From contig JACQZS010000058.1 of NCBI GenBank assembly GCA_016213725.1, forward strand, positions 1 to 42,186: DNA of 42,186 nucleotides, written 5' to 3'. Of the stretch, positions 32,212 through 38,566 are shown piece by piece. Origin of the DNA: Acidobacteriota bacterium (lineage in GTDB: Bacteria > Acidobacteriota > Terriglobia > Bryobacterales > Bryobacteraceae). Numbering within the stretch: the first letter of the stretch is position 1; every line of letters starts with the position of its first letter. The notes under the pieces were generated by a model. The model saw only the letters and a program-made list of their open reading frames with translations, searched no databases and was not told the origin of the DNA. The position numbers were made by a program, and so were the translations under genes.

Positions 32212-32544
32212 ATGCAAACGGATCTGAGTTCCAAACTCGGCCAGTACATGGACCTGCTGGCCCAGCGGCAAAGGCTGGTGGCGGCGAATATGGCCAATGT
32301 GGACACGCCCGGCTACCGGACGAAGGACCTGGATTTCCAGTTCGAATACATGTCGCTCTCGCCCGGCGCCGCGCCGCAGGTGATTGAGCCGGCCGGACTG
32401 GTGGTGAAGAATGACGGCAACAACGTGAGCCTGGACCGCGAATCGCGGCTGTTGGCGGAAAACGCGTTGCGCTTCAACGTGGCGGCGAATCTGCTGCGCG
32501 GGGAGTTGCGCGACATCCGCAAGGCGATTGATGAGGGCCGCTGA
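32212..32544 (+). CDS. flgB: Flagellar basal-body rod protein FlgB
   Basis: 'LLAQRQRLVAANMANVDTPGYRTKDLDFQ', 'DGNNVSLDRESRLLAENALRFNVAANLL'; operon context. Confidence 0.94.
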   Translation: MQTDLSSKLGQYMDLLAQRQRLVAANMANVDTPGYRTKDLDFQFEYMSLSPGAAPQVIEPAGLVVKNDGNNVSLDRESRLLAENALRFNVAANLLRGELRDIRKAIDEGR

Positions 32545-32559
32545 GGATAGGAGCGCCGG

Positions 32560-32997
32560 ATGAGTTTATTCAATGTGATGTCGGTCAGCGCTTCGGGCAT
32601 GGCGGCGCAGCGGGAACGGGCCCAGGTGGTGGTGGAGAATCTGGCTAACGCCGAGACCACCCGGACTCCGGAAGGAGGGCCTTACCGGCGCCGCGATGTG
32701 GTCTTTGAGAGCGCGGCGCAGGATTCGCCCTTTGCGGCGGTCTTCCAGTCGGAGATGACTGCCGGGAACCTCGGCGTGGAGGTGGGCGAGGTGCGGGCGG
32801 ACTCGCGCGATCCCGACATGCGCTATCAGCCCGGCCATCCGCATGCCGACGCACGGGGCTATGTGGCATATCCGCGCATCAACCCGGCTGAAGAGATGGT
32901 GGACCTGATGGGCGCCACGCGCGGCTACCAGGCCAACGTGGCCGCGTTTTCAGCGGTGAAAGACATGATTTCCAAGTCGATTGAGCTGATGAAATGA
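32560..32997 (+). CDS. flgC: Flagellar basal-body rod protein FlgC
   Basis: 'FNVMSVSASGMAAQRERAQVVVENLANAETTRTPEGGPYRRRDVVFE', 'NPAEEMVDLMGATRGYQANVAAFSAVKDMISKSIELMK'. Confidence 0.96.
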   Translation: MSLFNVMSVSASGMAAQRERAQVVVENLANAETTRTPEGGPYRRRDVVFESAAQDSPFAAVFQSEMTAGNLGVEVGEVRADSRDPDMRYQPGHPHADARGYVAYPRINPAEEMVDLMGATRGYQANVAAFSAVKDMISKSIELMK

Positions 32998-33290
32998 CGC
33001 TCTCCGGCCTCGCTCCCATCCGCCTGCCGGAGCAGGTCGGGCAGCTCCGGTCCGCGGCTGCCGCCGGAACCGGCGGATTCTCCGAGGTGATGGCCTCGGC
33101 TGTGGAGACGGTGAACTCGCTCCAGAACTCGGCCGACGCCACAGTGCGGCGGTTTCTGAGCGGCGAAGGGGGGGAACTGCACCAGGTGGCGCTGGAACAA
33201 CAGCAGGCGCAACTGTCCTTCGACCTCTTCCTGCAAATGCGCAATAAGGCCGTGCAGGCCTACCAGGAAGTGATGCGGATGCAGTTGTAG
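32994..33290 (+). CDS. fliE: Flagellar hook-basal body complex protein FliE
   Basis: 'VETVNSLQNSADATVRRFLSGEGGELHQVALEQQQAQLSFDLFLQMRNKAVQAYQEVMRMQL'; ATGA overlap with flgC. Confidence 0.93.
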   Translation: MTLSGLAPIRLPEQVGQLRSAAAAGTGGFSEVMASAVETVNSLQNSADATVRRFLSGEGGELHQVALEQQQAQLSFDLFLQMRNKAVQAYQEVMRMQL

Positions 33291-33320: not shown

Positions 33321-35039
33321 ATGGAGCAGATCAAGTCATTGCTGGCCAGCCTGACCACACGTCAGAAAGTGACGCTTGCCCTGGCGGCTGCGCTGGTGGT
33401 GGCTTTGATTGCCGGCGGCGTGCAGTGGAACAAGGAGCGCGACCTCAAGCCGCTGTACACGAACCTCTCGGCCGAGGATGCCGGCGCGGTGGTGGCCAAA
33501 CTGAAGACGTCGAACGTCGAGTACAAAGTGGCCGAAGGGGGCGTCGTGCTAGTGCCGTCGGCGCGCGTTGCCGAGCTGCGGCTGGAGATGGCTTCGGCCG
33601 GCTTGCCGCGCACTGGACGCATCGGCTTCGAACTGTTCGACAAGGCCAACCTGGGCACAACGGACTTCGCCGAGCATGTGAATTTCCGGCGGGCGCTGGA
33701 GGGCGAACTGGAGCGCAGCGTAATGGGCATCGGGGAGGTGGAGCGCGCGCGGGTGCACGTGACTTTTGCCAAAGACTCGCTCTATCTGGAGAGCCGGCAG
33801 CCGGCCAAGGCCAGCGTGATGATCAAGCTGAAGCCGGGCAGCCGGCTGTCGCCGCAGAATGTCCTGGCCGTGCAGCACCTGACGGCGAGCGCCGTGGAAG
33901 GGCTCGCGCCCGAGGCAGTTTCCATCCTGGACATGAACGGCAACCTGCTGAGCCGTCCGCGCCCGCAACAGGACGCCGAGATGGGTGCTTCCAGCGCCAT
34001 GCTGGAGTACCGCCAGGGCATGGAACGCGAGTATCTGGCCAAGATCCGGGCCACGCTGGATCCGCTACTGGGGCCGGAGAAGTACCGAGCCGGCATCAAC
34101 CTGGAGTGCGACTTCACCAGCGGCGAGCAGAGCGAAGAGTCGTTCGACCCGAACAAGAGCGTAATGGTGACCTCGCAGCGAACCGAGGACATTTCGGGCG
34201 CAGCGTCCACGGCGGGGGTGCCTGGGACGGGCTCTAATTTGCCACGGCCCGTGCCGCGGGGTGTCGGCGGCTCCGGCGGGGTTTCCCGGAAGACTGAAAA
34301 CACCACCTATCAGACGAGCCGCGTCGTGAAGCATCTGAAGCTGCCGCAGGGCGGAGTGCGGCGCGTCTCGGTCTCCGTACTGGTGGATCAGAAGCTGCGC
34401 TGGGAGGGAACGGGATCGAAGGCACGGCGGGTGCTGGAGCCGCCGAGCGCGGAGACACTGAAGGTAGTGAAGGACGTGCTGGCCGGAGTGGTGGGATTCT
34501 CGCAGGATCGCGGCGACCAGATCCTGGTGGAGACGCTCCCGTTTGAAGCCACTCTGTAGTCCGAGCCGCCGGAAGGCGCCGCTCCGGCCGGGCCCGCCGC
34601 CCCGGGCGGATGGGTACCCTGGCCCTGGCTGAAGCCCATCCTGAAGATGGCGCCGATGCCTGTGCTGCTGGGCGCTGCGGCTGCGCTGGGCGTGGTTTTG
34701 CTGCTGAGCCTGGGCTTGGTGGCCCGCGTGTTCCTGCGCAAGCGCAAGGCCCCGGCAGGCGCCATGACCGGCGGCACTCAGGCCTTGAGCGCGGGCAAAG
34801 GAGCTGCCGGACAATTACCCATGCCTGAGCAGCGCGGGTTTGAGGACAAGGCCCGCGAGGTGCTGGAGCGGAACAAGGCGGAGCAGGAGCGGCTGGAGAA
34901 TGAGACCTTGCTCTCGCTGCAATTGCCTCCGCAGACCAAGAAGTCCGAGGTGCTGAAGAAAGTGATCTCCGATCAGGCCAAGAAGGACGCCGCAGCCACG
35001 GCGCAGCTCATCCGCACCTGGATCACGGAGGGCCGCTAG
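33321..35039 (+). pseudogene. fliF: Flagellar MS-ring protein FliF interrupted by an in-frame TAG at 34557-34559
   Basis: 33321-34556 encodes TM1 plus the periplasmic part up to 'GDQILVETLPFEATL'; TAG at 34557-34559; the same frame continues 'SEPPEGAAPAGPAAPGGWVPWPWLKPILKMAPMPVLLGAAAALGVVLLLSLGLVARVFLRKRKAP...' (TM2 and C-terminal tail) to TAG 35037-35039. Called pseudogene only for lack of a better type; functionality unknown. Confidence 0.85.
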
Positions 35040-36080
35040 GTGATTACCAACGCAACACCCGACAAAGACCTCGCACCGCGCTATTCGGGCCAGCAGAAGG
35101 CGGCGGTGCTGCTGGTCACGCTGGGCGAGGAGTTGAGCGGCGAAGTCCTGAAGCATCTTGACGAGGATGAGGTGGCGCAACTCGGCAAGGAGGTGGCGCG
35201 AATCCCCTCCATCACCAGCGAGGACGCCGAAGCCATTCTCAACGAGTTCTACCAGATGAGCATGGCGCAGGACTACGTGCTCAAGGGCGGGCTGGAGTAT
35301 GCGCGGCGCATGCTCATCAGCGCCTTCGGACAGGAGCACGGCAAAAAGATCCTCGACAGGCTGGTGAAGCTGCTGGGCCACGAGACGGCGAGTTTTGATG
35401 CTCTGCAGAAAGCGGATCCACAGCAACTGGCCAAGTTCATCCACAGCGAGCATCCGCAGACTATCGCCTTGATCCTGAGCCACCTCGGCAGCAGCCAGGC
35501 GGCGGGACTGCTGTTTTCCCTGCCGGCGGAGATGCGCGCCGACGTGGCGCTCCGGATGGCGAGCCTGGACCAGATTTCGCCCGACATCATCTCGAAAATC
35601 GCCGGCATCATCGGGCAGAAGCTGAAGGCGCTGGGCGAGTTGAGCCGCGAATCCTACGGCGGCGTGCGGGCCGTGGCGGAGATGTTCAACCGCCTGGACT
35701 CCACCACCAGCAAGGAGATCCTGGACAAGATCGAGAACGAGGATCCGAACCTGGTGGAGACCATCCGGCACCTGATGTTCGTCTTCGAAGACCTGTTGCT
35801 CATCGACCAGGGAGGCATCAAAGAGTGCCTGGGGAGGGTGGACCGGAAGATCCTGACGGTGGCGCTGAAGGGCACCAGCGATCAATTGAAGAGCCACTTC
35901 CTGCAGTGCATGTCGCAGCGCGGCGCCGAAATGCTGCGGGAGGACATGGACGCGCTGGGGCCCGTGAAGATCAAGGAAGTGGAGGCGGCGCAGCAGCAGA
36001 TCATCTCCATCGTCCGGCAGCTCGAGGCGGAGGGCGTCTTGAGCCTGAAGGGCACGGTGGGCGAGCAATACGTGGTGTAG
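35040..36080 (+). CDS. fliG: Flagellar motor switch protein FliG
   Basis: GTG start directly after the fliF-tail stop; 'SGQQKAAVLLVTLGEELSGEVLKHLDEDEVAQLGKEVARI', 'EHPQTIALILSHLGSSQAAGLLFSLP', 'RESYGGVRAVAEMFNRLDSTTSKEIL', 'MFVFEDLLLIDQGGIKECL'. Confidence 0.97.
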   Translation: MITNATPDKDLAPRYSGQQKAAVLLVTLGEELSGEVLKHLDEDEVAQLGKEVARIPSITSEDAEAILNEFYQMSMAQDYVLKGGLEYARRMLISAFGQEHGKKILDRLVKLLGHETASFDALQKADPQQLAKFIHSEHPQTIALILSHLGSSQAAGLLFSLPAEMRADVALRMASLDQISPDIISKIAGIIGQKLKALGELSRESYGGVRAVAEMFNRLDSTTSKEILDKIENEDPNLVETIRHLMFVFEDLLLIDQGGIKECLGRVDRKILTVALKGTSDQLKSHFLQCMSQRGAEMLREDMDALGPVKIKEVEAAQQQIISIVRQLEAEGVLSLKGTVGEQYVV

Positions 36081-36084
36081 CCCC

Positions 36085-36777
36085 ATGGCGTCTAAAATCC
36101 ACAGGGCGGGAGAGGATCTCGCCTACGAGCAATTCCAATGGCGCCGGGCGGCCTCGGCGCTACCCGACGACCTGCGCTGCGAGGCTGCTCCAGCCACGCA
36201 GGCGATCCAGCGCGTGCGTTCCACCGATGCGGCAATCGAAGAGGGGCGGGCCCGCTTGGAGGCGCAGTTCCGGGGCGAGGCGGAGCAACTCAGGCGGGCG
36301 GCGTTTGAGGAAGGGAGGGCGGCGGGGCGTCAGGAGGCCCGGGCCGAACTGGAAGGCGTCATGCGGCAACTTTCGCACTCCATCGAAGTGCTGGCGGGCA
36401 TGAAGCCGAGGTTCCGCCAGGAGGTTGAACGAGAGGTGGTCAGCCTTTCGTTGAGCATCGCCCGCCGGATCCTGCGCCGGGAGATGCAGGTGGACCGCGA
36501 TGCCCTGCTCGGGTTGGTGAAAGCGGCGTTTGAGAACGTCTCGATGCGGGAGGTGACGCTGGTGCGGACGCATATCTCTCATGCGGAGCAGATTCGTCGG
36601 TACCTTTCGGGACTGGGCGCGCCGGAGTGCATCGAGGTCCGCGGCGACGCGTCACTGGAGCCGGGCGGAGTGGTCGTGGAGACGGCCCGGGGTTCGCTGG
36701 ACGCTTCGCTGGAGACGCAACTCGAGGAGATCGGCAACGGACTGTCGGATGTTCTCAATGGAGGTGGCGGGCGATGA
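36085..36777 (+). CDS. fliH: Flagellar assembly protein FliH
   Basis: Position between fliG and fliI; 'FEEGRAAGRQEARAELEGVMRQLSHSIEVLAGMKPRFRQEVEREVVSLSLSIARRILRREMQVDRDALLGLVKAA', 'DASLEPGGVVVETARGSLDASLETQLEEI'. Confidence 0.92.
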   Translation: MASKIHRAGEDLAYEQFQWRRAASALPDDLRCEAAPATQAIQRVRSTDAAIEEGRARLEAQFRGEAEQLRRAAFEEGRAAGRQEARAELEGVMRQLSHSIEVLAGMKPRFRQEVEREVVSLSLSIARRILRREMQVDRDALLGLVKAAFENVSMREVTLVRTHISHAEQIRRYLSGLGAPECIEVRGDASLEPGGVVVETARGSLDASLETQLEEIGNGLSDVLNGGGGR

Positions 36778-38120
36778 CAGCTCCCTGCTGGTTCAATCTG
36801 GCGCGGTACGAAAGCGTTGTGGCGGCCGTCGAGCCGATGCGCAGGTTTGGTCAGGTGACGAAAGTGGCCGGGTTGCTGGTGGAGTCCAGCGGGCCAGCGG
36901 CCGGGCTCGGCGAGTTTTGCGAGATCCTGCGGCCCGGGGGCGAGCCGGTGCGGACGCAGGTGATCGGTTTCCGGGACGGCGGCGTGCTGTCGATGCCGCT
37001 GGAGGAGACGTCCGGGCTCCAATTGGGCGACACCATCGTGACACGGCCCGGCGAGGCGCGCGTGGCAGTGGGGGAATCGCTGCTGGGCCGGGTGTTGGAC
37101 GGCTTTGGGCGCCCGATGGATGGCGGCCCGCCGATTGAAGCCGCCGCCCGTTACGACATCTATGCGACACCTCCGGGCCCGCTGGAACGCGAGCCGATCC
37201 GGGAGGCGTTGACCACCGGAGTGCGCGCCATCGACGGCTTTCTCACCTGCGGGCGCGGGCAGAGAGTGGGCATTTTCGGTGGCAGCGGCGTGGGCAAGAG
37301 CACGCTCCTGGGCAGCCTCATCAAGAACAACGACGCCGACGTTTGCGTCCTGGCGCTGGTCGGCGAGCGCAACCGCGAAGTGCGGGATTTCATCGAGCAC
37401 GAGCTGGGGCCGGAGGGGCTCAGGAAGTCCGTCATCGTCGTGGCCACTTCCGATCGTCCCTCGCCCCTGCGTGTGCGAGCCTGTTTCGTTGCGCTGGCGG
37501 TGGCCGAATACTTCCGGGATCAGGGCAAAGACGTCCTTCTGGTGGCGGACTCCGTCACGCGGCTGGCGATGGCGCAGCGTGAAATCGGGCTGGCTGCCGG
37601 CGAGCCGCCCAGCCAGAAGGGTTACACGCCGAGTGTCTTCCAGATGCTGCCGCGTATCTTTGAGCGGGCCGGACGATTCGCGCGCGGCTCCATCACCGGT
37701 TTCTTCACCGTCCTGGTGGAAGGCGACGACATGAACGAGCCGATCGCCGATGCCGTGCGCGGCATCCTGGATGGCCACATCGTGCTGTCCCGGTCGCTAG
37801 GCCAGGCGGGGCACTATCCGGCGATCGACATCTTGCAATCGGTCTCCCGGTTGGCTTCCCGTGTTGCCGGCCAGGAGCAAAGAGAGTACGCCAACCGGCT
37901 CCGGGAGACGCTCGCGCTGCTGCAATCCTCTGAGGACCTGATCCGGATCGGAGCCTACACCTCGGGTTCGAACTCGCGCCTGGACGATGCGCTACGCGTG
38001 GAGGATCACCTCAAGTCGTTCCTGCGTCAGAGGCCGGGCGAGAGTTGCACGCTGCCGGAGACGGCAGGGCGAATGGCGCAGCTTTGCGGCGCCGGCTCGC
38101 CCGCACGGAGAGGGGAGTGA
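36774..38120 (+). CDS. fliI: Flagellar protein export ATPase FliI
   Basis: 'GQRVGIFGGSGVGKSTLLGSL' (Walker A), 'VLLVADSVTRLAMAQREIGLAAGEPPSQKGYTPSVF', 'DGHIVLSRSLGQAGHYPAIDILQSVSRL'. ATGA overlap with fliH. Confidence 0.97.
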   Translation: MTAPCWFNLARYESVVAAVEPMRRFGQVTKVAGLLVESSGPAAGLGEFCEILRPGGEPVRTQVIGFRDGGVLSMPLEETSGLQLGDTIVTRPGEARVAVGESLLGRVLDGFGRPMDGGPPIEAAARYDIYATPPGPLEREPIREALTTGVRAIDGFLTCGRGQRVGIFGGSGVGKSTLLGSLIKNNDADVCVLALVGERNREVRDFIEHELGPEGLRKSVIVVATSDRPSPLRVRACFVALAVAEYFRDQGKDVLLVADSVTRLAMAQREIGLAAGEPPSQKGYTPSVFQMLPRIFERAGRFARGSITGFFTVLVEGDDMNEPIADAVRGILDGHIVLSRSLGQAGHYPAIDILQSVSRLASRVAGQEQREYANRLRETLALLQSSEDLIRIGAYTSGSNSRLDDALRVEDHLKSFLRQRPGESCTLPETAGRMAQLCGAGSPARRGE

Positions 38121-38566
38121 TGAAGAAGTTCAAGTTCCCTTTGGAGAAACTGCGGGGCCTCAGGCAGGTGCGGCTGGAGATGGTGCAGGCTCAGATGATG
38201 GCGTTGCTGGCGGAACGCTCGGCGTTAGAGCAGCGCCAGTTGATGCTGGATCGGCAGGAGTTGAACGCCCGGGACGAACTGCGCGTCAAGCGGGAGCTCG
38301 GCTTCGAAGAGCTGTCGGCGATGGAAGGCTTCCGGCGCTGGGCCGAACTGGAGCGCGAGCGCATGCGCCGCTCCGCGCTGCAGCTGAACGAGCGGGTTGA
38401 AGACCAGCGCAAGGCACTATTGGAGGCCCGGAGGGATGTGGAGGCGTTGAACCGGCTGCGTGATAGAAAGTTGACCGGCTGGCGGCAGGAGGTAGACCAG
38501 GAGATGGAGAGCACCGTGGCGGAGCTGGTCATCGCCCGCTGGCGCCGGGAGGGCGGAGCCGCCTAG
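38120..38566 (+). CDS. fliJ: Flagellar export protein FliJ
   Basis: Start 38120 overlaps the fliI stop (TGATG); coiled-coil 'MKKFKFPLEKLRGLRQVRLEMVQAQMMALLAERSALEQRQLMLDRQEL'. Confidence 0.85.
   Translation: MKKFKFPLEKLRGLRQVRLEMVQAQMMALLAERSALEQRQLMLDRQELNARDELRVKRELGFEELSAMEGFRRWAELERERMRRSALQLNERVEDQRKALLEARRDVEALNRLRDRKLTGWRQEVDQEMESTVAELVIARWRREGGAA

Follow-up and report, generated by a model that had tools for sequence, protein, structure and literature searches.

An in-frame amber codon within the fliF gene of a Bryobacteraceae draft genome

The flagellar genes of this Bryobacteraceae genome (Acidobacteriota; GCA_016213725.1) include a fliF frame that is interrupted by an amber codon. 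This raises the question of whether the MS-ring protein is truncated, split, completed by readthrough, or intact in the cell and misread in the assembly. We analysed the whole stretch of DNA around the gene (42,186 nucleotides, hereafter the window), which makes up the entire contig C319 of a draft genome (6.05 Mb in 341 contigs, 88.8% complete with 3.2% contamination). Judged from sequence comparisons, the stop is either a private CAG-to-TAG change in an ordinary fliF gene or an error in the consensus at that base.

Position of the stop within fliF

The fliF frame starts at ATG 33321 on the forward strand and ends at TAG 35037-35039. An in-frame TAG at 34557-34559 occupies codon 413; there is no frameshift at this site, and the frame is otherwise intact over 33321-35039. 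Codons 1-412 (33321-34556, forward strand) encode TM1 and the periplasmic ring domains. A Pfam search placed YscJ_FliF (PF01514, E value 1e-59) at residues 39-211 and YscJ_FliF_C (PF08345, E value 4e-33) at residues 246-408, and chains of flagellar M-ring proteins in the PDB matched the same stretch in a sequence search. Because the YscJ_FliF_C match ends at residue 408, the stop lies just past the periplasmic part of the protein. The site is a variable linker that follows directly on the periplasmic domain, about 30 codons ahead of TM2. The original prediction had placed the stop exactly before TM2; it does precede TM2, but at this distance 'exactly' does not hold.

The downstream 159 codons (34560-35039, forward strand) continue in the same frame through the rest of the linker, TM2 and the cytoplasmic FliG-binding tail to the normal TAG stop, and this part is present in every relative. 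When the tail was searched by itself against the PDB and Pfam, nothing relevant matched. The gene shares with the FliF family (PF01514, PF08345) both domains and the order TM1, periplasmic region, TM2 and cytoplasmic tail, and it lies within a flagellar operon. It differs from the family by one in-frame TAG before TM2, which intervenes between the first part of the frame and the segment encoding TM2 and the FliG-binding tail. By its domains and reading frame, then, the gene is fliF, but this allele does not code for the whole protein under the standard code.

Codon 413 in related genomes

The closest relative, a Paludibaculum sp. MAG of the same genus (G008, JARKQJ010000248.1), reads CAG at codon 413, and its fliF frame of 585 aa is open. 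Its FliF is 94% identical to that of the window over residues 1-412, and the two genes are 90% identical across the whole ORF, with CAG opposite TAG. Since this sister aligns codon by codon over the stop, the interruption is more than chance, and the amber codon does split a single fliF gene with both halves in one frame, as had been predicted. In other members of the genus the same linker column reads ACG, TCG, GCG, GCT, GCC or ACC, all in open frames, and fliF is uninterrupted in 8/8 same-genus genomes.

We also searched 237 family genomes using the sister's full-length FliF as the query. About 150 matches were listed, the weakest matches not being among them, and within this list the window's FliF was the only one with an internal stop. 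Two short matches, in G155 and G221, might have been natural truncations; on inspection both run into contig ends, and this reading was rejected. As the relatives' fliF frames are open here, the stop is not conserved, nor does it recur at this position. Thus, aligning fliF at the stop codon, the check proposed along with the original prediction, points to a point change: the closest relative has CAG and the family frames are open. A recent nonsense mutation and a sequencing error, two of the options offered there, both fit a change at this one base.

Two side observations came from this survey. A distant family genome, whose weaker match lies outside the approximately 150 listed, has an unrelated in-frame TAA about 133 codons before the codon-413 site (G017:C269, locus L127, fliF from base 697). 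This TAA sits inside the second periplasmic domain, and the downstream fliG also seems to be frameshifted. Additionally, two public MAG records named Arcobacter sp. (L035) and Bordetella parapertussis (L045) contain a Bryobacterales-type fliF; these names look wrong.

The downstream half of fliF and the neighbouring genes

Compared with the sister, fliF has a dN/dS of 0.043 over codons 1-412 and 0.112 after the stop, and the tail is more variable by nature in all relatives. The window's FliF and that of the sister are identical over their last 41 residues, a stretch that includes the FliG-binding end. Lineage-specific counts on the tail gave a p of 0.19 with one outgroup and a weak, uncorrected p of 0.03 with another. 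Long relaxation of the tail was rejected, as these counts give no firm sign of it on the window's branch. The tail is still under purifying selection, and the TAG either arose recently or is not a real change.

The neighbouring flagellar genes are in good order. Upstream, flgB, flgC and fliE (32212-33290, forward strand) are intact; downstream, fliG, fliH, fliI and fliJ (35040-38566, forward strand) have open frames, with Pfam matches for fliG, fliH and fliI. In a comparison of the window with the syntenic region of the sister genome (approximately 80% DNA identity), the only nonsense lesion in a real gene was that in fliF; other stops fell in antisense frames or upstream of start codons. The flagellar genes that were compared on two further contigs, C67 and C202, showed no nonsense lesion. 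We therefore reject general decay of the flagellar genes, in agreement with the earlier argument from the intact flgB-fliJ genes, as there is no further nonsense in the window (approximately 42 kb) or on C67 and C202.

A single copy of fliF, and no second, intact one, was found in the genome. Three congeners (G002, G006 and G007) carry an additional, more distantly related fliF and flhA, which suggests a second flagellar gene set in those genomes. The flhA domain PF00771 has no match in the window's genome and matches in 8/8 congeners. Loss of flhA was rejected; the region that holds flhA in the sister corresponds to the interval between the ends of two contigs of the window's genome, C202 (L119) and C67 (L118), so its absence is an assembly gap.

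How the stop may be explained

We consider it probable that the TAG is a real allele, produced by a recent one-base nonsense change from CAG at codon 413 of a normal fliF gene. Apart from this codon the gene is intact, and relatives lack the TAG. The change is likely to be confined to this genome, or to the dominant strain in its assembly. Translation would then end after the periplasmic domains of FliF, so that TM2 and the FliG-holding tail would not be made. The C-ring would be unable to dock without this tail, and cells carrying the TAG would be non-motile. In published work, TM2 of FliF spans approximately residues 445-470, and FliG is bound by the terminal segment of the cytoplasmic tail (PMC4768692). 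This segment co-folds with the N domain of FliG (PMC6079021), and it is on this published FliF-FliG work (PMC6079021, PMC4768692) that we base the expected uncoupling from FliG. The outer M-ring density is lost when TM2 and the tail are truncated (PMC8092281).

The allele resembles sporadic nonsense alleles of flagellar genes, in which a single private substitution lies in an otherwise intact operon; it differs from them in position alone. G017, too, has a stop in fliF, a TAA at a different codon. The FliF-FliG fusion of Chlamydia (PMC4768692) is similar in that FliF has a non-standard C-terminal part. However, the fusion is conserved across its family, whereas the form in the window is private and its tail sequence is retained. 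Our literature searches turned up no relevant case of a nonsense mutation in fliF or of a split FliF.

It is possible, though unlikely, that the TAG is instead a sequencing, assembly or strain-mixture error and that the living cell has an intact fliF. Because the genome is a 341-contig draft, with the completeness and contamination given above, a base error or a minority-strain base could have entered the consensus. The conserved tail and intact neighbours fit such an error equally well: the lesion stands alone within a conserved operon, and the downstream half is without clear relaxation. That G017 also has an isolated TAA elsewhere in fliF lends some support as well. Set against this, isolated base substitutions are an uncommon type of error in assembled short-read genomes, and there is no further nonsense lesion in the approximately 42 kb of the window.

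Production of full-length FliF by programmed amber readthrough or a suppressor tRNA is very improbable. The downstream half is conserved in frame, which counts in its favour, but release factor RF1 (prfA) is present with a score above the cut-off, fliE, fliG and fliJ all end normally in TAG, and the stop at codon 413 is conserved in none of the relatives among the approximately 150 matches listed. The search for a CUA suppressor that had been recommended found no such anticodon among 41 tRNA genes, a set that is incomplete, as is the genome, with several expected tRNAs (e.g. Trp) also not found. With RF1 present and no CUA tRNA found, amber reassignment or suppression is unlikely, and the original doubt about genome-wide reassignment is supported.

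We give equally little credence to a FliF that has recently become split or leaky, such that assembly still succeeds from separate products for the periplasmic ring and the FliG-anchoring tail, or with a low ratio of full-length protein. Least probable of all is a genuinely split MS-ring protein, with FliF-N ending at 34559 and FliF-C reinitiating at the first in-frame ATG past the stop (34647-34649, forward strand): TM2 and the tail would both be encoded by the 130-aa restart ORF, but no conserved stop-plus-restart layout was found among the approximately 150 relatives listed, the two short matches being contig-end cuts, and this option of the original prediction is thus unsupported. Reinitiation itself is unlikely because the ATG lies 87 bases downstream of the stop, no Shine-Dalgarno sequence or other ribosome binding site was found ahead of it, as had been anticipated, and the sister has CTG at this codon.

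In sum, we see no support for a novel type of split protein or genetic code, and a single stop in a draft genome should not be read as a split gene. The significance of a private CAG-to-TAG change is small outside the window's own genome. If the allele is real, it would mark a lineage that has recently become non-swimming through one base change, with its flagellar gene set intact.
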